Source: Heliocidaris erythrogramma
Lineage: Eukaryota; Echinodermata; Echinoidea; Camarodonta; Echinometridae
Direction of reading: 5' to 3'
Assembly (NCBI GenBank): GCA_025617745.1
Contig: CM046856.1
Location: forward strand, 48,984,873 to 49,048,872
DNA: 64,000 nt
Every line of letters begins with the position of its first letter. Positions within the stretch are counted from its first letter, which is position 1. A model generated the notes under the pieces. That model worked only from the letters and a program-made list of their open reading frames with translations. It did no database searches and was not told where the DNA came from. A program made the translations under genes and the position numbers. Positions 12,601 to 63,786 of the stretch are shown one piece after another.

Positions 12601-15600
12601 TAGATATTTGATTGGAGATGGTCAATCCACAGCATGGCACATAATGTCCTTAAGAAAGGCATTTTATCTTTACTGTTTCTCTCCACCCAGGTTTTAAATG
12701 GTTACTCTGTAGGATGCATTGGGGGCACCTGTAAAATGGTAAACTGCCTGGAATGCTCCCCAAGTAGTGGACAATGTGCACAAGTTTTGTGCAGACAATT
12801 TGTGCAGGCAAGCCTGAATTTGATGACGGGCGCTATATAAATTCAATTTTTTTAAGTTATGTAACAGTTTTGATGATTTTGTCTTTGTTTCCTTGATCCC
12901 AGGGAGAGCCTGGTGTTGTGCCAACTCTCAGCTATGAAGATATGATGAACCTGAGAGGAGAGAAGGTAATTATAAAGTGAAGGTTGAGTAATGGTCATGG
13001 TGAAAAAAATTTTGAGCTTCAATTCTCGTTCAGTTCTTGTTCAGTTTATTCCTGAGTAGAAGGATATCATGGTACATGCAGCAGTACATCAAATGGATTC
13101 CACTTGGAATGCTCTCATATTCACAATATGAAAATTAATAGTTAACTTGTTTGTGTGGTCCCATGTACCAATGTCTGTGTGCAGTTCTTGTTATGACTCG
13201 TAATTGTAAGTAATGTTCAGATTTTTTGTATTCATTTTTCATGATTCCCGAACCTCGACTAAAATTCTAACATGCAAAATTGTTTCTAATAATCAACCAA
13301 TAATCAACCATTCAAAATGACATCTGGACAGTTTCTTTCACAATGATGAAAAGTCTACATCACCTTTATTACAACCAGCTGCGGTACATGTACTATTCTT
13401 CACTTCACTTCACTGTGTGTGTTTGAATGTTGTATTCTACACTCAAACACACAGCAATGAGAGTGTGATTTTACTATGTTGTTTTCAAAACAAATGACCA
13501 CTTGTTGCTTTTTATTTCTGAGGTATGTTTTCATGAACAAAAGAAAATCATGGGAAATAATTATTTTGACTTGTATTCCAAATACAAAAAAAATTTCCTT
13601 TCTTTAATCAAACCACAATATTCTGTTCATTTATCTCTTGAATGGCTTCATATTTCTTCTTTTTATTTATTATTATTATTATTATTAGTTGTAGTAGTAG
13701 TATTAGTATTAGTATTAGTATTATTATTAAATTTATTTATTTATTTATTTTTTTTTTTTTTGAGGGGGGGGGGTATATTTCTTGTGAATAATTTCTAATG
13801 TTGTTTTTATTTTCATTTCTTTCCAAACAGGGAGAGCAAGGACTACCCGGTAGAGACGGGTTTAAGGTATGTATGATACTACTTCAGTTCAAGATTCATT
13901 TACTTCATTGTAAGAAATGTTACTAAAAAATGCATGTAATGGGAGATAATCCCTAACTTTTAGAATAATAGATTTGTTGACTTCTAATTATCCTGATATT
14001 TGATGATAATTTTGAAAGAATGTTTTTCTTTTGTTTCACAGGTTGAAGAGTGACCTCAATGGAAACATGTCATTATTTCATGATTTGACTTCATAGAAGC
14101 ATATGCTGGGCAATATGTTTTTCTTTCTTTCTTTCTTTTCCCAGGGTGTACATGGATCAATCGGTTTTCCAGGAGTTGCTGGTCAGGATGGATTACCAGG
14201 ACCAAAAGGAGATAAGGTTAGCATCTTTGTACCAAAGAGACTTTCTGTTATAAAACTATTCATATGTTGCTTGATTACTTTTCCAAATGCCAGATACACT
14301 GCTGCTACATTGCAGGATGTGTGACTTTTACAACGAAATTGCAAGAGTCACAATATTGGCTTCTTGTATAGATTTCTTATTCACCATGCAAGGCTCTCAA
14401 GGAACTTCAATATTACTCAGCTTTAGCTAATATTGGTTACTGATTTCAGTAACACCATTCAAGGCATTTATTATGCCTCCACCCACCGAAGGTGGGTGCC
14501 GGAGGCATTATGTTTTCGGGTTGTCCGTCCGTCCGTCCGTCCGTCCCACTTCTCGTTACCGCGATATCTGAAGAATCATTTGAGGTAGGAACCTCAAACT
14601 TGGTACTAGTATGTATCCCCATACGAAGATGAACTGATTAGATTTTGGGGTAAGTAGGTCAAAGGTCAGAGGTCACAGAGGTCAATTTACATGAAATTAC
14701 ATAAAAATTCTTGGTTTTTAGCACCGTTACCGCGATATCTCAAGAACTATCTGAGGTGAGAACTTCAAACTTGGTACCAGTATGCATACCCATAGAAAGA
14801 TGAACTGATTAGATTTTGGGGTAAGTAGGTCAAAGGTCAGAGGTCAATTTACATAAAATTACATGAAATTACTGGTTTTTAGCCTCGTTAGAGTTTGAGC
14901 CATCAACTGAATTTAGGCGGAGGCATATAGGAGACGCAGTCGCATTCATCTTGTTCATACTAGGTATCTCATTTACTACACCCGGGCGGAGTGTGGCAAG
15001 TGTAGATTGATGATTTGCCATAGGACATTATTTATGGGTCATTGGTCCTATTTCCTAAAAGAGAACATACAGTATTTCACAATTACATTTCAATACCTTC
15101 AGCATGATGTATTTGAAGGAAAAATATCAGTATTCATACAAAGCTAAATTAACCTTATAGGTGGATAAAAATCTTGTGCCTACTACCTCTGTTTTTTATG
15201 TTTGTTTGTTTAACAAGGTTTTTGTTCATAAGCAGATCATGCTGCAGATCTCAATAGTGGGAGTTACAGCAAAAACCTTTTCTTCAGTAATATCTGCCGA
15301 GAAGCTCCCTTACACTTCTAACCTAGTTTTGTTTTGAAAAATCACTCTGCGTTTGTAATCTACACTTGGATCAAATCTCTTCTATGATAGTTTTCAACTT
15401 TCTTCTTGTAGGGTGAAGTTGGAGTAGGTTTACCAGGAGCTCAGGGTAAACCTGGACAGAAAGGAGAATCCGGGGAACGGGGACCACCAGGTCCCTCATC
15501 TCTTGAAGTGAGTAAATGGCTTTTCACATTTTTTGTTCATTCCTCACATCATTTTTCTCCTGTAACTATTGTATCTTTTGATTATCTGATCCTTTGCGAA

Positions 15601-18600
15601 GCTTTCATATTTTCTGTTTTGCAGAAATAGGCCTCTTTTAGTTATTGATACATATAGATCTTTATTTGTACAGGTATTATCAGAATTACACATCGTCTGC
15701 TTTAATAAAGCCAAAAGGATGTTAACTACAGAGTTAAATTCAACCCTTCTGACTCTCCAAAAACAATGTGATCTTCAAGTGGATGGATCACCATACTGTA
15801 ATGATGATTCATTTGTAAAATAGCTAGTTATAGAAAATATGTAGGTTGGAACCTATGTCTTGTTTTTATGTTTCCAAAGAAATAACCTACATGTTAATGT
15901 AGCAAAGTCATTTTCTTATTATGTTATTTATATCTTTCCCACGATTCTCATTTCCTACAGGGTTTCATTGAAGGATCTGGACTGGATATGTTCATGGTAA
16001 GCTTCTTGGTTTATTTCTTTGTACATGTCCTATGTAGTGATATGATTCTAGAATATATAAATATTCTGTATATAACAGGTATAATTTATATTGAAATGAA
16101 TACATGTATGTCATAGAGACAACTTGAATGTGAATGTTTTTGCAATTTTGTTTATTTTTCCGTCGGTAAACATTGCTCATTTGTCTTTTAACAAACTCCG
16201 TGATGACTTTTTGTACCGTATTCATCTAAATCAATAAACAGTTCAACTACTTCCATGTCAGTTTTGAAATATTGCATAGTATCTTTTATGAAGCTGTTGG
16301 TAATTTATGATCTATCTCACTCTCTCTCTCTCTCTCTCTCTGCATTTTCTTTCTTATTTCACATCAAGACTACCATTAGACTTAGAGTTTTGAAAGTATT
16401 GGAATCTTTATTCATACAAATCACCCAAAGTTATTAACTTTATTTCCTCCTTGTATGAATCATACCCACAGGGTCAGCCTGGTTTACCTGGACCTCATGG
16501 ACCTATGGGACCACGGGGACCCATGGGCAAACCTGGTCTAACTGGGATTCCTGGTCTCGATGGTATGCCAGGAGAACCTGGCTTTCCAGGCCGAGATGGA
16601 AGGCCTGGTCCCAAGGGTGAACCAGGAGCTCTGACGGAGGAGGAGATCTTTGAAGAGATAGCCAATCTTACAGCGGCGTTTGAGATTGATGGGTTGCCAG
16701 GACAAGATGGGTTTAATGGATCCAGAGGTTCCCCTGGTAGACCAGTGAGTATTGGTGGTTGGAATGATGGTGGTAGGGGTATTCATGGTGGTGGTGATGA
16801 TGGTGGTAGTGGTAATGATGATGGTAATGGTGATAGTGATGACAATGGTGATGATGCCGGCATGGTTAATTGTGATGGTTATGGTGGTGTTCATGGTAAT
16901 GATGATGGTGGTGGTGATGATGAAGATGTGGTGATGATGAAGTATTAATGTTGTTCCAAGTTCAATTTTATAAGCTGTTTCAATTAATGTAAATCACAAT
17001 GTTTACTATATTATCAGGGTGCTGTTGGTCCTAAAGGAGATCCTGGTATGGATGGAGAACCAGGAATGAAAGGTGAAAGGGTAAGAAGATCAAAAAATTT
17101 ATTCTTCTGAATTTTTTCTGTGATTTTCCCATTTTCTATAATTATTGTCACATCATATTTGGCTGTTTTGAGTCAACTATGAAGATCTAGATGTCCCAAA
17201 ATCTCCAACCCGACATCATTACATTAGAGAAAGAACCCAGCTAGAATAAAATCAAATATAGAATCAAATATTCATATGTAGTTTTTAATGATTTTGATAA
17301 TTGTGTGAACATTTAATCTGTTTTTTATTCTGCAGGGACCGTCTGGTGTGCCTGGTGTTGAGGGAGTACAGGGAATAAAGGTAAACTTTAGTCAGTTTTC
17401 TAGCATTGATAGAAAGATGGGGAAATAAAAGTTGGAAAAAAATGGTGATGAAGAAGAGGTAAAAAGGAAAATATGTAAAATTAGTGGGAGAGTGAGATGG
17501 AAGAAAAACTAGAAAACCATGGATAGGGAAGGGGGAGGGGAGAAATTCTTTAGCTAAAGCTTTTGTGATGGTCATTGTGGTCAGACCTGTATGGGTAATT
17601 TCTAAATGAGAGCCAGTTTTATGAATACTACGGTTTATAATTACTCAAATATGAAAACATTTGTGTCGTAATTTATACAATGTAAACTAACCGATGTAAT
17701 CAGGAATCACATTATACATGTACACTCAGTTGCCTAGAAATTCAATTGAATGTACACGATAGTGATGATTTGCATGGTGAACTATTCAATATTTAAACAG
17801 ACCATTGCAATCACATGTTATCCACTCATTTTCTAGGGAGATTCAGGGCAGAATGGTATACCAGGTGTACCAGGCCTCGCTGGTATTCCAGGGGAACCTG
17901 GTCAGAATGGGGCCAGGGGACCACCAGGCCCCGCCGGTCCTCCTGGGCCTCCTGGAGCTTCACCCCTCCTACCACCAGGCTTCCCATGGACCAATACGGC
18001 ATTGGTGAGTATCATTGATGACCTTTGACCTGTTCTTACTGCATTTTCTCAAATATATGGGGAAACTTGCTTTGGAAATCACATGTATAGAAAGACCAAC
18101 TGTCCTAGAAGACTTCATTTTTGGTTTCCCTACTTGTATTAAAGTAACCTGTATGGAAAGAGCAGATGCTGATAGACACCGCATTTTGTATTGGTCTCAG
18201 TTGAGCTGAATTTATCTACATGAACATGTCTCACTGTAACTTATTCAGCTTTTCTACTTGAGAAATCAACACAAATATAGATCATTTTGATAATGATAAT
18301 ATAATGCACTCTAACTATGTAGTTTCTTCTTCGTGGATGCAGGCATTATTAGACTGTTTTATTCATCAGCCATGTTGCAAACCAGTCTTGGATTTTCATA
18401 TCTTCGTCCTGATGTGTAGAACGAATGCTGTTTGAATGTAACCAAAGTTTTTTAATTTCTGTTTTGGTCTCCTTACTGAGCTCTTGACTATAACACTGTT
18501 ACTGATTTAGCACTTACATTGATATTTTTTTGTTACCTCATTCCATGACTTTTGTATCTCTCCTCCCATCTACAGAATCAAGACCAAGAAGGAAGTGGAG

Positions 18601-24600: not shown

Positions 24601-27600
24601 GAAGGAGAGGAAAGAAAGGACTCAAAGGCCAGTTTGGTATTCCAGGAAGACCTGTAAGTATTCATTATTGTGTTTGCAAAGTAAATGTATCTAAGTCACT
24701 AAATGATGTATATTGTTCATATTTGTAATGACAGCTTTGTCTGGTCTTGTATATGACACCCCATTATGAGAATCCATTAGACTTGACCCAAACGTGTTGC
24801 CTCAATTTGTCACCTCAAAATACTCTGTAAGTTCAAAATTTCTTTTTCCACTGGCAAAATACCAGTATATAAATTACCAATGAGATGAAGTTGCCTCGTG
24901 ATGAAATTGCAATGATTCGCAAGTATGTGTGCTGCTTTGTAAGAGCTCTAGAGAGTTAAAAACAAAATGATGTTCAAGATATGATGAGGTTCACTCTTTT
25001 CCAGCTTTAGTCTACTCGTGCAATGTGCAATGGATGACTTAAGTTGATTTTAAAAGTAATTTAAAATGATTTGTGTTGGTATTCCTTGCCACACTTAAAA
25101 GATTAGGTCACATGTTTCAATTAATCAGCAAGAATGAAAGTATATTCTTCATATAACAAGGTTTTTCTTCATCTCCGATTCTGTACAGGGACGTCCGGGA
25201 GAACCAGGTCCTGAGGGACAAACTGGACCAGAAGGGCCCGAGGGAGCACAAGGTCAACCTGGTCCACCAGGCGCTGGATCGGTAAGCATACTCTGACCGT
25301 ACAGGGCCCTATTTCATAAAACTTGTTATCAATTACAAGTTACAGTAATTGTTATAAGCTACTGAAATCCTTGAATCTGATTGGCTGAGAGCAAAATTTG
25401 TCATAGAAATGAGGCAGTGGTTATTGATAACAGGTTTTATGAAATGGGGCCCTGGTCTACTTGTGTTGGAGCACTGTGGTATATTGGGGAAGGTTCTTGA
25501 CTCTTATACAAGAGGTCCTGGGTTCAATCCTCTTTTGATGCTTACAAGGTGTTTTATTCCCATTTGTCTTTATCTCTCAACGAAGGTGTATTATATGGGT
25601 ACCTGGCAGATCTGGGTTGTAACAAAATACATCTGGTAAAATATTTGGCAATGAATGAGCATTTATTTATTTAGTTCTTTTAGGGGATGGGTTAGCACTT
25701 GACTTCGACTTAAAAACCAAGATTCTATATCTTAATCATTACTTTTTATTTTTTTATTTTTTCTTCAACTTTATATCTTTTTCGAGACATGATACTTTCC
25801 ATTACGATTTGAATATTCCATTTTCTCTCTCTCTGTACACTGTCTGTTTGTTTTTCATTTTCTATTCTTTCAAATACTTTATTTACTTAGTTACATATAC
25901 AGTGAAATGTGTATATAAAGACCGCTCAAGGAAGACTAGAAAAGCAGTCTTTATGTACAGGTTCCTTTACTTTAATACACGTTTCAATGAGAAACACCTT
26001 TCAAGGGAAACAAAAATTGTGGTCTTTATAGACAGGGGGTAGCTAAAGCAGTTTTGATTGCTTATTTATATTAATATTATTTCATATATTCTGAATTTTT
26101 TTTGTTCTCTTCATGTCTCTAGGGTGACTGTGCTTGTGATCCTTCAACCTTCCCTCCATCATTCTTCCCTCCTGGAGAGAAAGGAGCCAAGGGAGATCAT
26201 GGTTCTCCTGGTCCAATTGGACCTGATGGTGTGCCTGGAGCTCCAGGTTAGTAATTAACTCATGCACTGCTGAATTTTATCATTCCCCTAGGTTCAATAC
26301 AGGAATCACCTTATTCTGGTATTAAATGAGTTAACCTGATGACTACTGAATTCTGTCATTCCCCTCGGTTCAATACAGGAATCACCTTATTCTGGTATTA
26401 AATGAGTTAACCTGATGACTACTGAATTCTGTCATTCCCCTCGGTTCAATACAGGAATCACCTTATTCTGGTATTAAATGAGTTAACCTGATGACTACTG
26501 AATTCTGTTATTCCCTTAGGCTTAATACAGGAATCACCTTATTCTGGTATTAAATGAGTTAACCTGATGACTACTGAATTCTGTTATTCCTCTAGGCTTA
26601 ATACAGGAATCACCTTATTCTGGTATTAAATGAGTTAACCTGATGACTACTGAATTCTGTTATTCCCCTAGGCTTAATACAGGAATCACCTTATTCTGGT
26701 ATTAAATGAGTTAACCTGATGACTACTGAATTCTGTTATTCCCTTAGGTTTAATACAGGAATCACCTTATTCTGGTATTAAATGAGTTAACCTGATGACT
26801 ACTGAATTCTGTTATTCCCCTAGGCTTAATACAGGAATCACCTTATTCTGGTATTAAATGAGTTAACCTGTTGACTACTGAATTCTGTCATTCCCCTCGG
26901 TTCAATACAGGAATCACCTTATTCTGGTATTAAATGAGTTAACCTGATGACTACTGAATTCTGTCATTCCCCTCGGTTCAATACAGGAATCATATTCTGG
27001 TATTAAATGAGTTAACCTGTTGACTACTGAATTCTGTCATTCCCTCGGTTCAATACAGGAATCATATTCTGGTATTAAATGAGTTAACCTGATGACTACT
27101 GAATTCTGTCATTCCCCTCGGTTCAATACAGGAATCACCTTATTCTGGTATTAAATGAGTTAACCTGTTGACTACTGAATTCTGCTATTCCCTTAGGTTC
27201 AATACAGGAATCACCTTATTCTGGTATTAAATGAGTTAACCTGATGACTACTGAATTCTGTCATTCCCCTCGGTTCAATACAGGAATCACCTTATTCTGG
27301 TATTAAATGAGTTAACCTGATGACTACTGAATTCTGTTATTCCCTTAGGATTAATACAGGAATGAGTTAACCTGATGACTACTGAATTCTGTCATTCCCC
27401 TCGGTTCAATACAGGAATCACCTTATTCTGGTATTAAATGAGTTAACCTGATGACTACTGAATTCTGTTATTCCCCTAGGCTTAATACAGGAATCACCTT
27501 ATTCTGGTATTAAATGAGTTAACCTGTTGACTACTGAATTCTGCTATTCCCTTAGGCTTAATACAGGAATCACCTTATTCTGGTATTAAATGAGTTAACC

Positions 27601-30600
27601 TGATGACTACTGAATTCTGTTATTCCCTTAGGCTTAATACAGGAATCACCTTATTCTGGTATTAAATGAGTTAACCTGTTGACTACTGAATTCTGTTATT
27701 CCCTTAGGTTCAATACAGGAATCACCTTATTCTGGTATTAAATGAGTTAACCTGATGACTACTGAATTCTGTCATTCCCCTAGGTTCAATACAGGAATCA
27801 CCTTATTCTGGTATTAAATGAGTTAACCTGTTGACTACTGAATTCTGCTATTCCCCTAGGTTCAATACAGGAATCACCTTATTCTGGTATTAAATGAGTT
27901 AACCTGTTGACTACTGAATTCTGTTATTCCCTTAGGCTTAATACAGCAATCACCTTTTTCTGGTATTAATGAGTTAACCTGATGACTACTGAATTCTGTC
28001 ATTCCCCTAGGCTTAATACAGGAATCACCTTATTCTGGTATTAAATGAGTTAACCTGTTGACTACTGAATTCTGCTATTCCCCTAGGCTTAATACAGGAA
28101 CCGTCTTGTAACTTCCAGTAGGCAATGGGTTAATCCATTGACTTATGAAGACAAGGGAGGGGGAGAGAGAGAGAGGGGGGGGGGGGAGACAGAGTGGTAG
28201 CACAAAATGGAGATTGGAGGAACAAAAATAGAGAGAGAGAAAGAGAAAGAGAGATGAGTCACAGACCGTTAGGTCATCATACAGCTTTGGATAGAATGAA
28301 ATATGTAAGTTTTCAACATACATGTACATACTGTTGTGCAAACTTCTGAAAAACATTGTTAAAGGGATACGCAACCAGGCGGCTGTGGGGAAAGTCAGGA
28401 TCGCGTAAGCCCCATTCACTCGTACACAAAGTTTGTGCGTCGAACGCGTCCGTTGGACTACTGGGATTATATTTCAGGCTGCACGAAGCCGACCGAATCT
28501 CGCACGAGAGCTCGAGCTCAGGCGAAGCGTGCATGTTTGTGCGGCGACCTGTCTATCCGAGGTTTGCGCCCCGCAGGGCAACGGCATGATCAGGTAACGA
28601 ACACGGTGCCCTCTCGCGGCATAAAAACGTCCACAATCGGCGATTGAGTATCCCTTTAAACAGCCCCCTCCCCCCCCTTTGTAGAATATTCTGACACCTT
28701 ATATATATTATTTATAATGTAGGATTGCCTGGTGTTCAAGGGCTGAGAGGACTACAAGGCTATGAAGGAGACCCTGGTAGTGACGGACTTGAAGGCAGAC
28801 CGGTAAGATCTATGTATCACAACTTTCTTGCCCTGCTAAAATCTAGTTTAGATTGTCATGGGGTGGTATTCTGAGAATTATTTTATCTTGATTTTAGTGA
28901 AAAGATTTTATTTGTCATAATAAATTATAAATTGCAACATTTCATTGGTGTTTGTGCAGATGAATTCCACGTACGCAGCCACTTTTGCGCAGTCATTAAC
29001 CAATGATGCGCCACAAGTGTACATTTTGTTATGACAATTAAAATTATTTCACTAAAATCAAGATAAAATAAATCTCAGAATACCATCCATGGTCATCATG
29101 AATTTTTACCCGCTATTGGTGGATTTTATGAAGGCCCTTCTTTGTGAAAATCAATAAAGTTCATCATGAAACTATAAACTTCACTAGAATTGCCAGTTGT
29201 TTCTTCAATAATGGGGTTCCATTTGGTATACTATGAGCCATGACCAACATCTTCATGTGCCTGGCAGAAGGCTGCAAGCATGAGTGGTCAGAGTTTTTAC
29301 TTTTTAGGGTAATTTTGTTATCTACAATGTACTGTAATTTGTATGTTGTACAATTTTGACAAAATGTTTATATTAGTCTGTGATCTGTGTTGCGGGTCTA
29401 TTTTGTTTGTTTTTGATATACTTACATGTGATTGTTATTTTTTTATGGATGATATATCTCAGATATATAGCAGTTTTACTGCAAATTTTACATTAAGAAA
29501 TTACAAAGAGTGTGTTCTGTATTATATAAGCCTGTTGTTTATTGTGCATTGCGCAACTAATAATTGATTGATTGGTGATGGGTGCTTGTTTGTTCCCTTT
29601 TATTATCGGTGCAGGGTGCGCAAGGTGTACCAGGGGTACCTGGAATAGCTGGAGCCAAGGGAGAAAAGGTAAAGCATTATACCCTTAATCTGTTAATGCC
29701 CTTTTCAAGTCCCTATTGATCCCCCTATCTCTGTGTGAATATATACATCAAGCAAAACTACAGCCTTATTGATCAGGAAGACTAATAAATGAGATATTTT
29801 TGTGCACTATTTGTCCCAATCCCTCATGCCTCAATTTGTATGAGCTTAATCCCCGCAAGTATCAGTATCAGTGGTGTCAGTGGTATATGTAGTTGTCACA
29901 TGCCCGCCAAATGCCAGTTTTAAAAAGAAATCTGCCTACTGTAATTCATAATGTGTTTTTTTTTGTCTTTTGATTTTTGTCTTAGAGCTACTGTTTCTTT
30001 CTGTCTGTTCCTCCTCTCTCCCTTTTGTGGACATTGTCCTCCCTCACCCCTTTTCCTTCATCAAATATTGGAAACGTGAATAAGTATATATTTACAGTCA
30101 CACTTATCAAGAGAAACCAGTTTATGATTGAAAAGTCACTGCTTGAGAACTCCATGAAGATGATGATGTAAACCCCTTGAATGACCTTACGTGTTGATTG
30201 TATAACTGATTTCAATCATTCATTCTTATTCATTCTTGTTTCTCTTTTTAGGGTGATCCTGGAGATTTCTTTGTGAATGATGAGGTGTTTATTGGACCTC
30301 CAGGAGAATCAGGTCCTCCAGGCAGAGATGTAAGTTTATGGTTCTCATCGCGAGTTGGTTCTAATCAGGATTTGCCTTCATCCTGTGAGAAAATATGGTT
30401 CCTAGTATTAAAAGCTTTCATCTTCCTTTTTTTTCTCTCTCTCTCTGATTCCATCTCTGTGCCTACATCCCAGTCTCTCACTTTCTCTTCTCTCTTTTGC
30501 TTGCTCTCGCCCCTACTTTCTCCCTCCCTCTTTTTCTTCATCTCTCTCTCTCTCTCTCTCTGTTCCTGCCTATGTCTCATTCTCAGTTCTTCCTGTCTCT

Positions 30601-33600: not shown

Positions 33601-36600
33601 GTAAATATTGAAAATGCAAATTCATATTGAAAAAAAAAAATACATATAAATTAGCAATACATAAATAGATAAATAAATATGAGTATAAAGGAAATATATT
33701 GCGTAAGGAAAATAAACCTAAATTGTGTTCAAGGTAAAAATGGTTTGCGGGCACACCTAAAAAGGCCTAGAGGCCTGCAGGGAAGGTAGCCCATATAGAG
33801 TAAAGTTGAAGCTTTAAAAAGGGAGAAAAAAGAACACAATTATACGGTTGAAGCATTGAACTAATATAGAAAAAAACAAAAAACAAACTTAGATGTAGAA
33901 ATACATGTAGGCCAAAACTAAGAATATGATTGGTCCACTTGTATGGAGGGGAAGATGGATTTTTCAGACTTTGTATAAGCATAAGCTGTCATTCTCACCC
34001 CCAAAGTACTATTCATTATAATTATAAAAGCTCAAATCAGTATTGACTGAATTTCCAAAACTCCAAATAAACTGACTGTTGATTATGGATAGGAACTTCT
34101 TTACAAGTCAAACTGTCTTTAAATAACAATCTTGCAAAGATTATTATTATATTTTGCTTTTTTATCATTGATACAGGCAAAAACCTATTAGACTGTGGCA
34201 TGATTGTAATATTTGTAAATCAGTGATGTAGATCATCTTCTCGTTTAAAGTGTACATGAAATCATTCGTCTTTTTTCTTTGAAATATGTTGTCATTTTGC
34301 ATGCAATATTTTACTATCTATGGTCTTTGACGTCACAAAATATTTCATTTTAGTGTCTATTGTTCATTCTTGTGTGTCAATTCTTTTTGTGTGACTTTTT
34401 CATTTTCAATATTTTATGGCTGTGTGGGCAATACTGGGTCATCAAAGTCATTTTAGATTTTTTGAGGAAATTGTCCTATATCTGATTGAAAGCTACTACC
34501 CGTTATACTAACCATACGTCTCAATTTTATAGCAAAAGTAGACAACATGTAGGCTCTTTTTGCTCTTCCAATTCATTCTCTTGCTTATCCAAAATAGGGC
34601 AATTCAAAGTTGAATATTAGGCCTAATCATGTTTCATATGTAACAAGAGTTTACAAGAACATTCAACAGAAATTGACTTCAAATTTAGAAAGTGTAATTT
34701 TAATTGATATTCAGGTATGCTAATGAGATAGTCAGTACTATGGATATCAGATTTTTATTACTGTTTTGATAAACTCTGATACCTATCAGACATGATTAGT
34801 ATTTCCTTTGGCATGCCCTCCACCTAGTTTATAAAGGATATTATTCATCAAAATAAAAAGGGAAAAATTGTAATTGTAAATGTCACCTTTTAGCCTAATT
34901 TGCCAATAGGAGACGGTCATTGTCTTGCATTTTTTTATGATGGTTGAAAAGTCAATTGGTACTGTGGAAACAAAGTAATGAAAATCATAAACCACATACA
35001 AGTTGAAATTAAATTAAAGTAAGTTGAATTTTGTATCTGCAAAATGAATTATATTATAGATTTTCTTGGTCTAGTATCATACATGTATCTTTCTATTATT
35101 GGGAAATATATGTATACAAACATTGGGTATTAAACATTGGTTATTAAAGTATGGGCTTGAATTGTAACATGTGGGCTTGGAGTGTATAACTAATCAGATG
35201 GACATTTTTAAATTTTACCAGTGGTGTTCATATGGGTTTGCATTATATACATGGATATCTAATCGGTGAAGTGATGCTTAAATTGGAAAAAAAAGTGAAT
35301 AGAGGGCTTAACTGCAGAATGCCCCGCCATTTCAGTGTATGAGGCTTAGCGTTAGGATCAAGGTCGAAGGTCAGGGTTGGGGATACTGAAAGGGATAGTG
35401 TTAGTGTTAGGGTTAAATTCAGAGTTTAACGCTTATGTTAGGGAGAACGCTAGTGCAAGTGTTAGGATGAGGATTAGGGTTAGAGTTAGGTTAAAGTTTT
35501 ATCCCTAGGGTCAATGTTAAATCTAGATTTAGGGTTATTTTAACCGTAGGGTTCAAGTTAGGGTTTAACGCTTAGGTTAGGGTGGGATTTTAACCCTGGG
35601 GTTAGGGTTAGGGATATGGTTTATTATCCCTAGGGTCAGGCTTAGGGTGAAACCATAAGGCTAGGATTAGGGGTTAAACCTAGAGTTAAATTTAGGGTTT
35701 AACATTAAGTTCAGTGTTAGGGTTGACCCTTGGTGTAGGGTTGGGTTAGGGTTAGTGTAATGGTTAAGACTGTAGGGATAGGATCAGTATTAGGGTTAGG
35801 CCCTAGGTTAAGGGTTAGGTTTGGGGACTTGGAGCTACATGTATGGTGGGGTATTTTGCTTTTTAGGAATCTCAATAATGACCTTTGACCTGCAGCCATC
35901 ACAGTATTAATTTCTTCCTTCCTACAGCTCGGAGCTACCTTTACCTTACCACCAACCTATGAACCACGCCCTCAACCACCCATTACATCGAGAACTACTA
36001 CTACTACATTAACACCTACCACCACTGTAAGACTTATGGTTTATCATCATTCTGCACTCATATACTCTATATCCCTATTTCTCTATCTCTCTTTCTCTAT
36101 CCATAATATTTCTCTCTTTCTCTATCCATAATCTTTCTCTCTCTCTCTCTCCCCCCATCTTCCATCTAGCAGATGTTTATATATCTAGCTATTATCTAAT
36201 CCAGCGTCTGATGCAGTGTCTTCTTCGAAAGCTCTTAGTTCTTCTTCTTCTTCCTCTTCTTATCTTTCTCTTCCTCTCTCTCATCTACCACACTCCTATA
36301 CAACTCATATCTACCTCTGCCTCTCTCTTTAACTATTACTCTCTTTCACTCTATCTCTCTCTTACTCTCTCTTCTCTCCCTCTCTTTCTCATGATTAGTA
36401 GTGATTTCTTCTTGTACATACAGTACCTCTTTCTTTCTGTCTATCTCTGTTTTGTCCACATTTCAGTCTCTTTTAGGCCTGTAGGTCATTCTATATCTCT
36501 GTCTCTTTCTCTCTCCATTATTTACCACCTGTCATTTTGTCATTCTTATTATGTCTCTATCTTTCTTTCATTGTCAATTTTATATTCCTTCCCAACTATC

Positions 36601-39600
36601 TAGTACTCTTATTCCCTTTTTACTCTCAAACACTATAGTATCGCAATATTCCAACTCTGTTCTCTCTCATATTTTCCCTCAATTTTCATATCTTGCTCTC
36701 ATTATCTCTCGCCTATATTCATACATTTTCCTATCATTTCTTTCTGATCTTAAGGTTTATCTTTAGATCAGGTTTATCTGCATTCTTTCCAAGTTACTAT
36801 AACTCCACTTTTGCAATTTATTATTTTTTTCATTTAAAGTGTGTTCTAAAGTCATTATACTGAAGTTTATTTATTTTTCTTGCACTTTATGTTCATTCTC
36901 ATATACTCTATGTATAGACTTTTCCAAATACCTTGTCCTGATTTCTAAGAACCAATCTTTATCTTTACTCTGGGCAATTGTCTTGTTAGATACCTCCCTC
37001 AAACTTTACCTAAATGCATTGGTTTATCTGGATCACTCCCTTTGCAAATAATTTTCAGTTCTTTATTTTTCCCCATATTTATATCACAGTTCATGAAGCC
37101 TTACAAATTAATATCCCCAGTATTGCATAACAGCACCTTTATCCCCAAATTTTAGTTTAACCAATGAATATTCTCTCTAACAAAATGTTCCTTTACAAAG
37201 GCCAATGCAGTAAATCAAGTAAAAAAAAAATATGTGTGTTTCATTATGCAAAGTTTTGGTTTGAATAGTTACAAGTGGCTAGTTAGTATCAAAACATAAC
37301 CTTTTTGAAAGGAAACCCATGGCTGCGATTAGGTTCTGTATTTCTGTATGCAAAAAAGTGTATGTCTCATTTTCAAGACAGTATTGACTTCACCATCAAG
37401 CATTTCAATATTGATGTTCATTAGAGTAACATATTCATCAATGTGTCATGTATGTTTCATGAAATATGGGTAAACACTGCATGATTATAATTTGGACTCT
37501 TAGTTGGTATATTTGCATGTGGGTATTCAGTGGCTAGAGATTGTTACAGTCACCTTTCATTTAGAAAGATATTTGATTAAATTTTTAGTTTCTGCTGTAA
37601 GTTTCGAGCTAGATATAGAAAGACATTGGATATGTACAGAGTCCATTCAGTAGTGCCTTTTTTGGCGCTGAGATGATATTGATACTTGCTTTCCTTTCAG
37701 CTGGCACCGTTTGTGGGTCCAACTGAACCTCCTCAGATCCCAGGTCCTGGACTAACAGATGTACCAGAGCCTGAGCTTCCGGGACCAGAAATACCTGTAG
37801 CAGACCAACCCATGGTAAACATAAACAATGTCCGTACATGTACATATACTAATGAAGCTGATGCAGTGAGGAGTATAATTATTGGAGATGATGTGACGTA
37901 ACTGATAGATATGTGTCTGCTTCACCATGAACAACAAAACATGTTGGCAGCATTGGGATACAAACCCATACCATCTAAATAACTGGCAACTCTTTCTTTA
38001 CTGACACTGACATGATGGCAGTAGTGGGATACAAACCAATACCATCTAAATAACCTTTGACTCTTTCTTTACTGACACTGACATGGTGACTGCAGTGGGA
38101 TACAAACCCAGACCATGTAAATTACTGGTAACTTTTGCTTTACTGATACTGATATGGTGACTGCAGTGGGATACAAACCCATACCATCTAAATAACTGTT
38201 GACTCCTTCTTTACTGACACTGACATGGTGACTGCAATGTGATACAAAACCCATACCATCTAAATAACTGTTGACTCCTTCTTTACTGACACTGACATGG
38301 TGGCAGCATTGGGATACAAACCCATACCATCTATAAAGTAACTGTTGACTCTTTTTTTACTGACACTGACATGGTGACTGCAATGGGATACAAACCCAAA
38401 CCATCTAAATAACTATTGACTCTTTCTTTACTGACACTGACATGGTGGCAGCAGTGGGATACAAACCAATACCATCTAAATAACTCGTGTCTCTTTCTTT
38501 ACTGATACTGACATGGTGGCAGCAGTGGGATACAAACCAATGCCATCTAAATAATTGGTGAATTTTTCTTTACTGATACTGACATGGTGACTGCAATGTG
38601 ATACAAACCAATAAAATCTACATGTAAATAACTGTTGACTCTTTCTTTACTGACACTGACATGGTGACTGCAGTGGGATACAAACCCATACCATCTAAAT
38701 AACTGTTGACTCCTTCTTTACTGACACTGACATGGAGACTGCAGTGTGATACAAACCCATACCATCTAAATAACTGTTGACTCCTTCTTTACTGACACTG
38801 ACATGGTGGCAGCAGTGGGATACAAACCAATGCCATCTAAATAATTGGTGAATTTTTTCTTTACTGATACTGACATGGTGACTGCAATGTGATACAAACC
38901 AATAAAATCTACATGTAAATAACTGTTGACTCTTTCTTTACTGACACTGACATGGTGCCAGCAGTGGGATACAAACCCAAACCATCTAAATAACTATTGA
39001 CTCTTTCTTTACTGACACTGACATGGTGGCAGCAGTGGGATACAAACCAATACCATCTAAATAACTCGTGACTCTTTCTTTACTGATACTGACATGGTGG
39101 CAGCAGTGGGATACAAACCAATGCCATCTAAATAATTGGTGAATTTTTCTTTACTGATACTGACATGGTGACTGCAATGTGATACAAACCAATAAAATCT
39201 ACATGTAAATAACTGTTGACTCTTTCTTTACTGACACTGACATGGTGCCAGCAGTGGGATACAAACCAAAACCATCTAAATAACTATTGACTCTTTCTTT
39301 ACTGACACTGACATGGTGGCAGTAGTGGGATACAAACCAATACCATCTAAATAATTGGTGAATTTTTCTTTACTGATACTGACATGGTGACTGCAGTGGG
39401 ATACAAACCCATACCGTCTAAATAAATAACTGTTGACTCTTTCTTTACTGACACTGACATGGTGGCAGCAGTGGGATACAAGCAAATACCATCTAAATAA
39501 CTGTTGGTTCTTATTGACATGGATGTGGCAGTCTGATACAAACCCATGCCATGAAAACGACATGACAGTCATTAATTTTGGCTTCTATCCCTTCTACTGT

Positions 39601-51060: not shown

Positions 51061-51804
51061 GAACAAGATGAATGTGACTGCGGCTCCTATATAATTCAGT
51101 TGATGGCTCAAACTGTTCTTGAAATATTGTGATAACCAGAACAAGAAGCCTACAATTACATGTTAATTGACCTCTTTGACAATTGAACTTATAACTTTGA
51201 GAATTGACCTTACACCTTATAACCGCAAAGTCTGATCACTTTATCTCCTCCAAATCATGAATACAAAATAGTTGAGATATGGTGATCAAAGCTAAAAAAC
51301 ATTAATTTAATTTCACATATGACCTTTATGACCTGTCACCTCTGACCAACATGAACAGGAATATAATCAGTACATCTCACTATGGTGATGCATACTAGTT
51401 CCAAGTTTGAAGTTAATGGATCAAATTGTTCAAGAGAGTATTAACAAGGCAAAAATCTGAAATTTCATGGTAAATTACATCTATGACCTTGACCTTAGAC
51501 CTACATTTGCCAAAATCTAATCAGAAAGTCTTCCTATGGTGATACAAACGGGTTTGAAGTTAATGGATCAAAATGGTTCTTGAGATATAGTGTTAACGAA
51601 GATAACACCTGCAATTTCAGAAATTGACCTCTGTGACCTTTGACCTACATAACCAGATCATCTTCTTATGGTGATACACACAAGCACCAAGTTTGAAGTT
51701 CATACCTCATGTGGTTCAGGAGTTATCGCAAGAACGGGAAAGCAGGATCAACAACCCAAAAACATAATGCCTCCGGCACCACCTTTGATGGGCGGAGGCA
51801 TAAA
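51061..51804 (-). mobile_element. 'GGAGGCAT'-ended element, inverse copy with degenerate core
   Basis: Starts with the inverse of the 14955 end (gaacaagatgaatgtgactg, then cagttgatggctcaaact) and ends ggcggaggcataaaa at about 51804. The core holds about four diverged units with words such as TGACCT (51626-51650). Confidence 0.8.
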
Positions 51805-58600: not shown

Positions 58601-61600
58601 TAATGAGATTAATATTTCTTCCAAACTCAGATCACTGTCTGATTGTATACTGTGCAGTGGAATGATTGCATGCGGTTCTTACTCACCTGTAGTGTAGCAC
58701 AGAGTAGACTCTGAAGGTCGTTGTACTGGGTTCGGTCTGAAGCTGTCAACACATGTGACTGTAAACAGCAAAACAAAGAACGTGCACCAATATAAATAGT
58801 CAATACAAACAATGCTGCACTGGATATCACAACTTCATAACATTTTCTGGAGAAAGAATTGTTAGCAAATTTCATTGATCACTGTTCACATTAGAGAGGC
58901 AATACCGCAATAATATATAGCGGTATTCCTGCATACATGTCCCTTTTCATGTATGCATCAGTAATAGAATATTTAGTTGATCAGCAAGTACAACCTTGCA
59001 ATGTTGCTAACCAGCATGGAAGGTGTATTTTGGCCAAGGGTATGACCCTTGAAGCTCTGCTTCACAGTCTACCATCTTTGTGAAGCTATGCTTCACAGCC
59101 AAGCCGTAAATGTCACTGCCATTTTGTGGAAAACAGTTCCTATTTGCCAGGTATAAAAACAGATTCTTTCTATTCACACAAATAATTGCTAGTCATGGGG
59201 TAACTCCAGGGAGCTCCAACGCGCAGCGTTGGAGCTCCAGGTACAACTATCCAAAGTCGACCTCGCCCATTTTATGGCTAATCGCATCACTTAATTTCGG
59301 CAGGTAAGATAGAAATTTGTACTTATACTTAAAGAAAATTACTGTAACTATCTAGCAGGCTCTTTGATTTTACGATTTAACGATTGTTTCGATGAAAAAA
59401 ATGGAATTTCCTCGCCGAGCCAATCTTTTCCCTGTACTGTACCGTCGATTCAAATGACTCGATCGCACTGTGTGTAATGTACCGTATACCGTCGCTGACT
59501 CCCTGGGGTTAGTCATGGGGAAGCATTTGCCTGAAATAAGCAATCTGGTGCTTCCGTTTGCTAGCAATTGCTAGGCTTTTGCTAGTTTCATATCAATATC
59601 AATACCTCCATCTGCAGAATCAGTTGTATCCTCTGAAGGATAATGTTGGTGGTCTCCAAGACATGGCCATAGCAATCAGTGGCTGAGTTCTTGACCATCT
59701 CCATTAGGGCTTCATAGGCAGCACTCCTCAAATTGGCTTGATGGGCATCACCTCTGAAAGAGAACAATGATGGTTTCCATTTTTTAAGAGCTTTCCACAT
59801 TATTCTCCCTAGTGCATTTCTTTCTTTTTATGACTTTTCATTACTCATAAATATATCTTGGTACATTTCAAGACATGCAAGATCAAGCAGAAGCCTTACA
59901 AGACACAATTTACAGTGCTATAAAGCAATGCAGGAAATGCATTATTTTGTACACAAACATGCAAAATGTTGATTTTCACTCCGTTTTGGCCTGACATACG
60001 ACTAAGAAACGTCATGTGAACTTGCACGGATTGTCCAATTTGTGAAAACTTTGTCTCAAAACGTGCGTGACATTAGAAAGAAAGTAGTCCCCAAAAGTTG
60101 TGTCGCAATCTGCGGCAGTCATGTGGCAGTTGTAGACAGGGTTAGGAGTACTGTTAATCCTCTGTTAATCACTGTTAACAAGTGTAAAAGGGGCCTCATA
60201 CTACAGAATGAACCTCACCTGTCTGTTGTTTCCAGCAGTTTCTTGACGATAAGTTCAAATGCCTTTGACAAGCTATATGTGTCAGGCTCTTTGTCGTTCT
60301 CCGCTGATGCCGACTCATACGCATTTTCAGCTAGACTTGAAAATGCCTGAAACAGAAGACAGATCAAGCATCACTGACTAATCACTAATTTGCCTATGAA
60401 AATCCCATAAATGCAGCAATTTCAACATTTAAAAATTCTTAACTTTCTTACTGTTTGTCTGTTTGTTTAAATCTTCACCAACCTTTTTCTCAGATTTTTC
60501 TTAATTCGTCAAATTCAACATGCTGCTAAATTCAGTTGATGGCTCAAGCTCTTCTAGAAATATTTGATAACGAGGCTAAAAACCAGTAATTTCATGTAAT
60601 TTTATGTAAATTGACCTCTGTGACCTCTGACCTTTGACCTACTTACCCCAAAATCTAATCAGTTCATCTTTCTATGGGTATGCATACTGGTACCAAGTTT
60701 GAAGTTCTCACCTCAGATAGTTCTTGAGATATCGCGGTAACGGTGCTAAAAACCACTAATTCCATGTAATTTCATGTAAATTGACCTCTGTGACCTTTGA
60801 ACTTTGACCTACCTACCCCAAAATCTAATCAGTTCCTCTTTCTATGGGGATACATACTGGTACCAAGTTTGAAGTTCTTACCTCAAATAGTTCTTCAGAA
60901 ATCGTAACGGTGCTAAAAACCAAGAATTTCATGTAATTTCATGTAAATTGACCTCTGTGACCTCTGACCTTTGACCTCCTTACCCCAAAATCTAATCAGT
61001 TCATCTTTCTATGGGGATACATACTGGTACCAAGTTTGAAGTTCTCACCTCAGATAGTCCTTGAGATATCGCGGTAACGGTGCTAAAAACCAGTAATTCC
61101 ATGTAATTTCATGTATATTGACCTCTGTGACCTCTGAAATTTGACCTACCTACCCCAAAATCTAATCAGTTCCTCTTTCTATGGGGATACATACTGGTAC
61201 CAAGTTTGAAGTTCTCACCTCAAACAGTTCTTGAGATATCGCGGTAACGGTGCTAAAAACCAAGAATTTCATGTAATTTCATGTAAATTGACCTCTGTGA
61301 CCTCTGACCTTTGACCTCCTTACCCCAAAATCTAATCAGTTCATCTTTCTATGGGGATACATACTGGTACCAAGATTGAAGTTCTCACCTCAGATAGTTC
61401 TTGAGATATCGTGGTAACGGTGCTAAAAACCAAGAATTTTTATGTAATTTCATGTAAATCGACCTCTGTGACCTCTGACCTTTGACCTACTTACCCCAAA
61501 ATCTAATCAGTTCATCTTCGTATGGGGATACATACTAGTACCAAGTTTGAGGTTCCTACCTCAAATGATTCTTCAGATATCGCGGTAACGAGAAGTGGGA

Positions 61601-63786
61601 CGGACGGACGGACGGACAACCCGAAAACATAATGCCTCCGGCACCCACCTTTGGTGGGCGGAGGCATAAAAATGAAGAAACAGATCAGTGAAAGTTTGTG
61701 GCAAATCTAATAAAGAAATTTCAATTTTCAAAGTGGTAATAGACCATACACAAATTGGAACACGCTTCACTCTGCACTAACGTTTTTTTTAGGGGTTCCG
61801 TACTGAGATATTTAGTCTTTCTATAGATAAGCCCAATGTAAAAAATGTTGACATTTTTGGGGTCTGGGCTTAGATTTTGGGTGCCCACGTGTCCCGGGTG
61901 CCTGTTTGTATTGAGTCTTGCTGATAATGACATATTTCATTTGGAAATAAGAAAATTGATATTGTGAAAACTGTCACTACAGAACAAATGGGACAGGTGC
62001 TCAAAAGTTTTATCAAAAGAGTTGCCAGTTTGTGTTTGGTCGCTAACAATTCAATAAAGACATAAATTTCTTATCACTTATAAGACTTTCTGTAAACTTT
62101 CCCAGATCGGCTTCTTTTATCTGTATGCTTTTGATTCAGCCAACCGAAGCAACCTTTCCCTTTAACCCTACAACCCTCGTTCTCCTTACCCAGCAAACGT
62201 TGGCAGCAACCCTTGGCTCATTTCCCAGGCAGGCAATGAGAGCCATCAACAGGTCGTCAAAGTACGGCTGCCCCAGGACGGCCTGCGGTAAGAGTTCACA
62301 GATGCGGCCCAGCGTCCAGGCAACTGTATCCCTGACGACGACACATGGGTCGCAGAGAAGCTCGATGAGGATGGGGAAGGCTTGCATGACAAGGGGGTTA
62401 AGAAGGGTCTCATTGGGCCCTTCTAGGATGGAGCCTTGGGAGTGAAGAGAGGAGAGATGGGAGAGATTCATTATGATACTATCCATGAAGCAGAGAATTA
62501 CTGTAAACGCTGTTATTTTCGCGCGATTAAATTTTCGCGCTGAGCGACACCAAAATATATTCGCGGGTTCTTAAATTCGCGCTGCACAATTACATGCTCT
62601 TATGTACACCCACTCCATTTATTGATATACACACACGCAGTCCATTCAAATGCATACGGCATGCGCAAATACACACACATGCTCAAATATGAATTGGACA
62701 CACACACACCCATATTAATGTGCTTAAGCGAGCAATTCAACCCACATAGCTGTAGGAAATCAGGCTAATATTTTTGCGAGTTCTAGAATTCACGCCTCCA
62801 AAAAATAGCGCGAAATCCACAAAAAAAAAATTAATGTACTACAAATATTTCTGCATTTACAGTAATAGCGACAATTTGTCTTTCAAAGAACAATATTAAA
62901 GTTAATACGAGAAAAAGTGACCTAATAAAAATGTCTAGAAGATCATGAATGTCTTCAACATGACATGGAGAGATGCAGACTTTCATTCACTAGACTTGAA
63001 CTTGAACTATGACTGGCTATAAAAATCGCTGTGCACCCAGCAAAGGGTACAGGTAGAAGCATGGACAAGAAAAACACATTCCAAAGTTTTGACCATTCTT
63101 GGACTACATTAAACAAAAAAAAAGCAAGACATTCAGTTTCTATATTGTACATTAACAGCAACAGCCTACATGTATAACTTCAACAAAGAAAACTCAAAAT
63201 GTTTTTATAATTAAAAAATGTTTGTACACTTCTGCCAAGCACACACAATCTTAAATTGTGATCCGACACATGCTTCAGTGACATTTGCTCCAGGCTCAAA
63301 GAGAAGTTGGAAGAGCAATTGGGTTTTAGGTTAGGGTAATTACAGAAATGGGGTTCGGTTTAAGTAACGCATTAGGATTAGGGTTAATGTTTTCCTTCAC
63401 TTTCTTAATACTCCTTAACCGTTAACCCACAGAAGGCCAGGTAAAAGTGTTTGGGGGTTGATTTTATACATTCTAGCTGTACACAAATTATCTTTTTAGG
63501 CGATTGGTACACTTTAGGTGTATAGTACGGTGCAGGGTTGGCTTGAATTCGTTTAGTGTAGGATATTGACTTAACAACAACTGTCGCTGGAGCCTGTGCC
63601 ATTGAACCTACCAAATGCCATGACAGCAGCGTCTCTGTATTGCCAGTTATCCGACCGAATGTGATTAGTTATGAACGGAACGGCGTGGGAGACGATGTCA
63701 TCCTCACAACAGTTAGCTAGAAGCATCAGACAGACACCAGCAGCTTTGCATGGATTCCACTCGTCTTCGTCATCATTTTCATCTTG
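52427..63786 (-). CDS. KPNB1: Importin subunit beta-1 (karyopherin beta 1), 11 C-terminal coding exons (gene-level entry)
   Basis: Nuclear import receptor made of HEAT repeats. It binds importin-alpha or cargo, nucleoporins and Ran-GTP at the pore. The 11 exons join in phase into about 549 residues ending in TGA. That matches roughly residues 330 to the end of the 876-residue human protein. Landmarks: [17 protein letters not shown] (the acidic loop region), [105 protein letters not shown] and [20 protein letters not shown]. The N-terminal importin-N domain lies beyond the window. It is convergent with the collagen gene. Confidence 0.97.
52771..53030. repeat. Dispersed repeat, copy B of a pair
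   Basis: Inverse of 6904-7170. It shares 'atgactgagcactggcca' and 'tactgttcagctgtccatg'. It lies in the last KPNB1 intron. Confidence 0.7.
53250..53443. mobile_element. MITE-like 'tacagtcaaacctg' element, well-kept copy
   Basis: Starts tacagtcaaacctgctttag and ends gacaggtttcactgta. It is nearly collinear with the 11161 copy, with one extra internal 'ctcataaagaccgc' segment. Confidence 0.85.
53521..53635 (-). CDS. KPNB1: KPNB1 exon: C-terminal HEAT repeat
   Basis: Acceptor tttcccacag, donor gtaggt. It encodes [20 protein letters not shown], then [18 protein letters not shown]. Both ends split codons and match the flanking exons. Confidence 0.94.
53739..54134. repeat. Dispersed inverted-ended repeat, copy 2
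   Basis: Same family and orientation as 10252-10629, 'ttaaagataaagttgagttc' to 'cagaactcaacc'. Confidence 0.8.
54507..54615 (-). CDS. KPNB1: KPNB1 exon: HEAT repeat
   Basis: Acceptor gttttcag, donor gtaagt. [20 protein letters not shown], then [16 protein letters not shown]. It ends one base into an Asn codon. Confidence 0.96.
54808..54957. mobile_element. Foldback 'gggccctGTTTCATAAAA' element
   Basis: Left gggccctgtttcataaaact and right gatttatgaaacggggcc are inverse, with 'agccaatcagatgcaag' inside. Same family as 11401 and 25301. Confidence 0.85.
54958..56055. other. KPNB1 intron without recognised feature
   Basis: AT-rich. A short foldback-like motif around 55865-56040 ('gtttaaaccatgg' near both ends) suggests one more small MITE. 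Confidence 0.45.
56056..56199 (-). CDS. KPNB1: KPNB1 exon: HEAT repeat
   Basis: 48 codons, phase 0. [48 protein letters not shown]. Acceptor gttgacag, donor gtgaga. Confidence 0.97.
56507..56697 (-). CDS. KPNB1: KPNB1 exon: HEAT repeats
   Basis: Acceptor ctttgtag, donor gttagt. [60 protein letters not shown]. It starts with two bases completing a Val codon. Confidence 0.97.
56751..57285. mobile_element. Large foldback element
   Basis: Outer ends taaagggaaagtccacc and ggtggacttccctttca are inverse. Inner arms also pair ('ggcaactctgtgacgtatct' with 'agatacatcacggagttgcc'). Imperfect arms are about 200 bases each. A truncated relative lies at about 61672-62165. Confidence 0.85.
57692..57839 (-). 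CDS. KPNB1: KPNB1 exon: HEAT repeat
   Basis: Acceptor tttcatcag, donor gtgaga. [49 protein letters not shown], ending one base into Val. Confidence 0.97.
58119..58482. repeat. Tandem array, 46-bp unit, eight copies
   Basis: Unit cacaagactgtacctgattt, then gaagctgattaggcctttt, then ccagtct. Copies start every 46 bases from 58119 to 58441 and are almost identical; one base differs at the start of the last copy. Confidence 0.97.
58687..58758 (-). CDS. KPNB1: KPNB1 exon: HEAT repeat
   Basis: 24 codons, [20 protein letters not shown] then ATLQ. Acceptor gtttacag, donor gtgagt. Confidence 0.96.
59606..59753 (-). CDS. KPNB1: KPNB1 exon: HEAT repeats
   Basis: Acceptor ctctttcag (phase requires this rather than the AG two bases on), donor gtattg. 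[49 protein letters not shown]. Confidence 0.96.
60219..60346 (-). CDS. KPNB1: KPNB1 exon: HEAT repeat
   Basis: Acceptor tgtttcag, donor gtgagg. [42 protein letters not shown] plus two bases of Arg. Confidence 0.97.
60528..61668 (-). mobile_element. 'GGAGGCAT'-ended element with six internal units
   Basis: Starts ttcagttgatggctcaag and ends ggtgggcggaggcata after (GGAC)n. Inside, 'tgctaaaaac' recurs at about 60574 (diverged), 60746, 60912, 61080, 61249 and 61419, a unit of 166-172 bases. Each unit holds a cluster of TGACCT words. It lies in a KPNB1 intron. Confidence 0.9.
61672..62165. mobile_element. Truncated relative of the large foldback element
   Basis: Words 'gaagaaacagatcagtgaaa', 'acacaaattgg' and the right end 'aacctttccctttaa' match 56751-57285. 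The left terminus is missing where it meets the GGAGGCAT element. Confidence 0.6.
62190..62434 (-). CDS. KPNB1: KPNB1 exon: HEAT repeats
   Basis: Acceptor ctcccaag, donor gtaagg. [55 protein letters not shown], ending [10 protein letters not shown]. It starts with two bases of a split Gly codon that match the 63612 exon. Confidence 0.97.
62435..63611. other. KPNB1 intron with repeat remnants
   Basis: CA-rich stretch and 'ttcgcgcgattaaattttcgcg' at about 62515-62590 (CG-rich words inside AT-rich DNA), partly inverted near 62770-62825, so probably another foldback element. TTAGGG-like words occur at about 63330-63400. Confidence 0.5.
63612..63786 (-). CDS. KPNB1: KPNB1 exon: acidic loop and HEAT repeat (most 5' exon in window)
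   Basis: Acceptor ctatcacag, donor gtaggt. [58 protein letters not shown] plus one base of Gly. The acidic loop with the D/E run is a signature of importin-beta. Confidence 0.98.

Follow-up and report, generated by a model that had tools for sequence, protein, structure and literature searches.

AGGTCA clusters with DR1 spacing in the core repeats of a HINE-like element of Heliocidaris erythrogramma: a candidate docking array for NR2-class receptors

In the window (the whole 64-kb stretch of DNA analysed here), clusters of the word AGGTCA in direct repeats spaced by one base (DR1) were found in the tandem core repeats of a dispersed element. They are carried by a non-autonomous element of the Helentron-like (HINE-like) type, and the cluster is one of several conserved boxes in its core repeat of about 170 bp. 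Every transposition and every gain of a core monomer duplicates the cluster. The reading tentatively preferred here, although we give it rather less than an even chance, is that the cluster is a working box of the element and would act as a docking array for NR2-class receptors.

The element and its word clusters

The segment 14471..14955, used as query against the genome, matched itself at 100% and 12 further places at 91–93% identity (query positions 1–485 or 2–485). It consists, in this order, of a T-rich left edge, a hairpin formed by the subterminal inverted repeat (subTIR) and an inner repeat, a (GTCC)n microsatellite, two core monomers, the 3' subTIR and a tail. The exons on both sides read Gly-X-Y, and this copy was therefore assigned to an intron of a collagen-type gene. 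The features of this copy and of two further copies in the window are given below, with locus L014 for comparison.

14471..14955, plus strand: whole HINE-like (non-autonomous Helentron-like) copy, in an intron of a collagen-type gene (from sequence)
14472..14483, plus strand: 5' subTIR TATGCCTCCACC, with one mismatch to TATGCCTCCGCC of L014 (from sequence)
14501..14508, plus strand: inner inverted repeat GGAGGCAT, pairing with the subTIR as a 5' hairpin (from sequence; pair also in L014)
14523..14546, plus strand: (GTCC)n microsatellite (from sequence)
14554..14724, plus strand: core monomer 1, 171 bp, four AGGTCA words (nhmmer E = 4.7e-56)
14656..14684, plus strand: word cluster 1, AGGTCA A AGGTCA G AGGTCA CAG AGGTCA, i.e. 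DR1, DR1, DR3 (exact motif scan)
14725..14884, plus strand: core monomer 2, 160 bp, three AGGTCA words (nhmmer E = 4.5e-52)
14827..14846, plus strand: word cluster 2, AGGTCA A AGGTCA G AGGTCA, i.e. DR1, DR1 (exact motif scan)
14916..14927, plus strand: 3' subTIR GGCGGAGGCATA (from sequence and the pair in L014)
14928..14953, plus strand: 3' terminal stretch ending in CATCTTG, then TT; no clear hairpin (right-end comparison and fold)
60526..61667, minus strand: second copy, with left end and six core monomers, without 3' subTIR (from sequence and monomer profile matches)
51064..51801, minus strand: third, diverged copy, right terminal stretch kept, 3' subTIR lost (four monomer matches, E = 4.6e-22 to 2.5e-6)

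The subTIRs TATGCCTCCGCC and GGCGGAGGCATA are 12 bp long and 100% complementary in L014, with one mismatch in the window copy. The inner pair, ATGCCTCCG and CGGAGGCAT, lies 18 nt apart. Folding of the 5' hairpin as DNA, in the common form taken from other copies, gave -15.7 kcal/mol (z = -4.94), a stability equalled by none of 200 shuffles. In HINEs, a stem-loop usually follows the 3' subTIR. None was found here: the 41-nt right end folded at -2.0 kcal/mol (z = 0.21) with 114 of 200 shuffles equally stable, and in L014 a palindrome precedes the 3' subTIR and none follows it. Since the 3' hairpin was tested for and not found, the element is called HINE-like rather than HINE. The copy at 60526..61667 was considered 3' truncated because of its missing 3' subTIR, and the diverged copy at 51064..51801 retains nine exact words and one DR1 pair.

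Element ends were analysed in 49 loci, namely 20 copies chosen without use of the motif (see below) and 29 from a sequence search with the element. Exact right ends were recovered 27 times and were followed by TT in 26 cases. Paired left edges read TTTTTATGC in 21 of 24, in a search which admitted T-rich edges only. Insertion occurs at TT or T-rich sites, and a duplication of T is indistinguishable within T-runs.

Some observations were made on neighbouring and composite copies. Just downstream of the window copy lies a short inverted-repeat-like stretch (ACACCCGGGCGGAGTGTGGCAAGTGT, 14980–15003). Something loosely similar is present behind the copy at L037, and the stretch may thus be a further dispersed repeat. 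Loci L017 and L099 share an identical left flank, in which a T-run comes after a related core monomer; this points either to an insertion into a relative or to the multiplication of a composite element. At L012 and L020, element copies adjoin one another head to tail, an arrangement expected from rolling-circle mobilisation; as both have the same outer left flank, they may represent one multiplied composite and not two events.

The seven AGGTCA positions listed in the earlier note on this DNA (14656, 14663, 14670, 14679, 14827, 14834 and 14841) proved correct, all on the plus strand, with four words in the first core unit and three in the second as it had stated. Its claim of one-base spacing stood for the first two spacings of both units and failed for the third-to-fourth pair of the first unit, where the words are three bases apart (DR3). 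The fourth word of core monomer 2 seems to have been lost with a short deletion.

Across the window, 16 exact AGGTCA-n-AGGTCA pairs were counted, where 100 shuffles that preserved the dinucleotides gave 0.01 on average. Thirteen of them lie within the three copies of the element (4 at 14.5–14.95 kb, 1 at 51.1–51.8 kb and 8 at 60.5–61.7 kb) and three elsewhere, starting at 18019, 35879 and 52507. The latter are solitary AGGTCAAAGGTCA pairs (18019–18031, 35879–35891, 52507–52519 (minus strand)) outside any recognised core monomer, about 0.01 being expected per window. By eye, the pair at 18019 directly follows an apparent splice donor of a collagen exon, and the one at 52507 is seemingly within a coding stretch. 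The window also holds large minisatellite arrays at 26266–28100 (76-bp units), 37939–39506 (71-bp units) and 58118–58480 (46-bp units), and degenerate TTAGGG-like repeats at 35403–35825, in the interior of a chromosome-scale contig. The mitochondrial contig C24 of the genome agrees with an echinoderm host, probably a sea urchin: its COX1 has AAA at four of 517 codons, each at a site usually occupied by asparagine, for which AAA stands in the echinoderm code. The order on C24, with an rRNA-like stretch, COX1, tRNA-Arg and then frames identified by eye as ND4L and COX2, suits a sea urchin, as does the size of the genome.

Spread of the cluster with the element

In order to avoid circularity, 20 copies were chosen by their left end alone from 100 listed places. 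All of these motif-free copies have mismatch-free ends and lie on contig C1, and they are thus likely young copies of a single chromosome. At least one DR1 pair was present in 18 of the 20, which bears out the proposal of the earlier note that a non-autonomous element is spreading DR1-spaced AGGTCA clusters, here into an intron. The comparison with shuffled controls that it had proposed also showed enrichment in this sample: the core arrays of these copies (13,635 bases) held 109 DR1 pairs, where 60 shuffles gave 0.00 on average, the shuffle means for all spacings from DR0 to DR8 ranging from 0.00 to 0.02. Of the other spacings, DR0 was counted once, DR3 64 times, DR7 twice and DR8 64 times, the DR8 count corresponding to the distance from first to third word; DR2, DR4, DR5 and DR6 were absent from the same arrays. 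Within the 20 stretches, 282 words are oriented along the element and 4 against it. The 71 monomers of subfamily A in this sample carry four words in 48 cases, three in 18 and two in 5, and 15 of them have no exact DR1 pair when model columns only are considered.

In the whole genome (1.064 Gb), AGGTCA-n-AGGTCA pairs numbered 39,375 and triples 13,074; the reversed patterns gave 215 and 10, respectively. These sites are not independent, many of them being in arrays with successive sites about 170 bp apart (first 100 places listed). With up to 3 mismatches, the left end of the element occurs 5,587 times in the genome and the right end 2,576 times, the reversed patterns giving none in either case. 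The counts and the anatomy together show that the tens of thousands of DR1 pairs arose because transposition and monomer gain both copy the cluster. An origin by chance or as a low-complexity artefact was ruled out, its probability being practically negligible with counts more than 100-fold above shuffles and reversed-pattern controls.

The carriers of the triples were checked at 18 less-clustered loci picked from 100 listed places (first 5.9 Mb of C1) and at L001. Unrelated carriers were not borne out at these loci: in all 19, every triple was located in a core monomer of one superfamily. Seven isolated DR1 pairs were examined on the listed part of C1. Four are in core monomers (two of these loci, L120 and L121, are nearly identical) and three in other tandem repeats with a start-to-start spacing of about 150–200 bp, themselves found via the motif, which match the core profile only at E = 0.002–0.03. 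These three barely matching tandem repeats, at L117, L119 and L122, each bear a AAGGTCAAAGGTCA cluster, a partly altered form of which recurs in a second unit at L117 and L119. DR1 clusters may thus mark a wider group of core repeats. Altogether, 332,995 bases, mostly chosen for the element, were examined; of their DR1 pairs, 397 are located within monomers and 4 are not, and three of these 4 belong to the window. In viral contigs, the AGGTCA triple was found in 9 stretches and the repeat of the element outside the motif gave no matches; a search of genome contigs also gave none.

With regard to an autonomous partner, 103 rows for PF14214 (Helitron_like_N) were obtained in the genome, with open frames of up to 4,199 aa. 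Many of the matches lie in open frames of 3,000–4,200 codons, several at low contig coordinates, and these loci are possibly recent autonomous elements. No autonomous element sharing the ends was found, which counts against the preferred reading: none of 10 Rep rows (C1 below 62 Mb) had a correctly oriented, listed, mismatch-free right end within 100 kb.

Conservation of the words and its possible causes

In 78 monomers from 18 of the 20 motif-free copies, identity to the consensus was 98.0% in the word columns and 93.3% in the rest. The words were ahead even in the most diverged third of the motif-free monomers (96.4% vs 90.6%). Other 8-base boxes of the monomer reached similar values, i.e. 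98.1% for CTGATTAG, 97.9% for ATTTTGGG, 98.4% for TCAAACTT and 99.3% for TTTTTAGC. Seven of 140 windows of cluster length outscored the cluster in conservation, and the second word is only average, since 78 of 163 six-base windows equal or exceed it. For the identity and allele-count tests, monomer pieces with fewer than 100 aligned columns were dropped, for the subfamily-based tests those covering less than 70% of the columns, and overlapping loci were also removed.

The equal conservation of the other boxes agrees with a passenger explanation, which is a serious if doubtful possibility: the words would belong to the ancestral core repeat and be copied along with it without need of any protein, the low shared variation stemming from a few young source copies and from homogenisation within arrays. 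The copies are indeed young, with a median divergence from the consensus of 4.8% in the motif-free monomers. The receptor consensus used to assess changes in the words was RGKTSA. In an analysis which included motif-selected loci, 867 of 988 words were exact and 920 fitted RGKTSA. Distinct one-base changes keeping the consensus numbered 9 of 35 against 5.8 expected (p = 0.17), and this lack of a significant receptor-specific pattern also favours the words as passengers. Counted per element, 49 of 96 one-base changes kept the consensus, 32 of these being one variant. Only one variant is common: in 32 elements word 2 has T instead of G as its third base (AGTTCA for AGGTCA), a form that still agrees with the receptor consensus.

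The core repeats fall into four subfamilies (clusters with fewer than 4 monomers or 3 loci were dropped), between whose consensuses the words are 99% conserved and the rest 86%, while 2 of 5 spacer positions vary. That the words stay largely intact across subfamilies which differ at other sites argues against mere passengers. Subfamilies B and C were drawn largely from motif-selected loci. When monomers with the selecting triple were removed, the consensus of C showed AGTTCA as second word, that of B AGGCCA as fourth word and no second spacer, and that of D AGGTGA as second word; with the same exclusion, the words were only slightly ahead of the rest within subfamilies, at 95.9 vs 93.0% (B), 93.5 vs 92.3% (C) and 97.2 vs 96.2% (D). 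This evidence for preservation of the words is suggestive and not unbiased.

A load test covered 208 monomers. They came from 50 elements, of which 18 were motif-free copies, 29 had been obtained in the element search and 3 lay in the window; motif-selected loci were dropped. A variant was taken as private when present in one element only and as shared when present in two or more. The shared load, to which differences between subfamilies contribute, was 0.0137 per site and monomer in the words and 0.0657 elsewhere. Among site sets matched for composition, about 1 in 10,000 had a shared load as low, as did 2 of 140 slid masks, the word mask included. This roughly fivefold rarity of shared variants in the words is difficult to reconcile with passengers, as is the presence of DR1 pairs in the three weakly matching tandem repeats, even though these were found through the motif. 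The private load was not reduced in the words (0.00425 vs 0.00297 elsewhere): 134 of 140 slid masks were as low or lower, and 4.4% of the matched sets had a private load at least as high. "Not reduced" is the safer wording than "raised", because some private alleles go uncounted where a shared variant already takes up an allele. The load test replaced an earlier comparison by allele counts (Fisher p = 0.044), in which three alleles per site were the ceiling and loci selected through the motif had been included.

The words thus seem to be kept during propagation of the element, with no clear protection after insertion, old copies being few. In the simplest reading, selection or filtering acts in the transposing lineages and none is detectable afterwards in this modest sample. 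The best slid mask of 24 sites begins at column 118, beyond the first two words; together with the equal preservation of other boxes, this indicates that the constraint is not special to the receptor words. A conserved stretch extending beyond the words, and a constraint which seems to act during propagation, would also be compatible with a non-receptor factor, either the Helentron protein or a host replication or recombination factor, binding the words for excision, replication or array turnover. We regard such a factor as unlikely; to our knowledge, no Helentron Rep site of this form has been described. Direct repeats of such words are the textbook receptor site (RGKTCA; PMC1785376).

Divergence classes were analysed from the nearest subfamily consensus, again without motif-selected loci. 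In 5 of 6 classes the words were less divergent than the other sites, and in the smallest (3 monomers) the two were about equal. Word and other divergence were 0.5% vs 3.3%, 1.3% vs 4.8% and 1.8% vs 7.3% in three of the classes, and 6.3% vs 10.4% and 12.2% vs 17.9% in the 16 most diverged monomers. The narrowed advantage in the latter fits decay in old copies, although these are few. With the words less divergent in nearly all classes, some protection after insertion is nevertheless possible.

These data bear on a co-option by the host, in which intronic copies would serve as receptor response elements, as proposed for primate Alu-DR2. The intronic position of the window copy, the thousands of copies as ample raw material, the lower word divergence in most classes and the nine exact words still present in the old 51-kb copy are all in its favour. 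Against it stand the private single-element changes, which are not reduced in the words, and the shrinking advantage of the words in the most diverged monomers, both in tests which a few co-opted copies would escape. The evidence on co-option is thus mixed or negative; host enhancer use of the copies is unsupported and was considered quite improbable.

The preferred reading, that of a working box, was put into the following scheme. From its preservation in propagating lineages, the box would serve the element itself. An NR2-class receptor (COUP-TF, TR2/4, HNF4 or RXR type) of the germ line or early embryo would dock on the words and would open or position the donor chromatin for rolling-circle mobilisation by the Helentron protein. 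Binding of the putative box by such a receptor is plausible. The contrast observed here, where shared variants avoid the words and private mutations do not, offers a way to distinguish selfish use by an element from co-option by the host, and is applicable to other element-borne sites.

Comparison with known systems

Cg_HINE are non-autonomous Helentrons of Crassostrea gigas, discussed alongside the Pearl family (PMC7492417). The element described here resembles both in having, in the same order, a 5' subTIR with a complementary inverted repeat, a microsatellite, central tandem repeats and a 3' subTIR; the microsatellite is of the GTCC type in several Cg_HINE/Pearl members, and the central repeats of Pearl are about 160 bp long (PMC7492417). 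It differs from Cg_HINE by the lack of a detected hairpin after the 3' subTIR and by a gap of 18 nt between subTIR and inverted repeat, against 1–12 bp in Cg_HINE, and neither GGTCA nor TGACC is mentioned in the main text on Cg_HINE (PMC7492417). Its 12-bp subTIRs are within the 11–15 bp given for HINE subterminal inverted repeats, whereas the 3' subTIR lies 26 nt from the 3' end, compared with 38–60 bp in mite HINEs. DINE-1-like elements, which include the sea urchin Tsp elements (Cohen et al. 1985, as cited in PMC4067079), have been described from sea urchin and molluscs, and share with the present element the layout, the preference for TT or T-rich insertion sites and, in some members, tandem repeats (PMC4067079). 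HINE-like elements with core repeats and the spread of receptor half-sites by a mobile element (Alu-DR2) were thus both known already. In the literature covered, which is partial and has most subscription journals outside it, no report was found of receptor half-sites joined to HINE-like core repeats in an invertebrate.

In human ALT cells, receptors of the NR2C/F type are loaded on variant repeats of the telomeres (PMC13187458). The likeness consists in orphan receptors on a tandem array; in the ALT case the array is made of telomeric TCAGGG repeats and the loading was shown experimentally (PMC13187458), while occupancy of the core repeats is only predicted. COUP-TF, HNF4 and RXR are among the receptors common to distant metazoans (PMC7827873). 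The sea urchin receptor SpCOUP-TF is of maternal origin and alternates between the periphery of the nucleus and, in mitosis, the condensed chromatin (PMC4227642). The NR2-class reading is based on this behaviour, on the loading of NR2C/F on ALT repeats and on the sequence of the words; it is weakened because other boxes are conserved equally well and the pattern specific to receptors is weak. It would offer a testable explanation of how maternal COUP-TF reportedly behaves across the chromatin of sea urchin embryos.

In primates, a mobile element likewise disperses a receptor half-site in direct repeats, namely the retinoic acid response elements of Alu-DR2, with 108,582 DR2 in the human genome, 90% of them in Alu (PMC1785376). 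There, the DR2 motifs reside in a SINE, arose largely via deamination of methylated CpG and are backed by ChIP evidence (PMC1785376). In the present element, DR1 and DR3 motifs are part of a tandem core repeat, were already contained in the propagating form and are candidate receptor sites. If receptors bind them, they would represent an independent, tandemly clustered counterpart of primate Alu-DR2 in an echinoderm host and in a different class of element.
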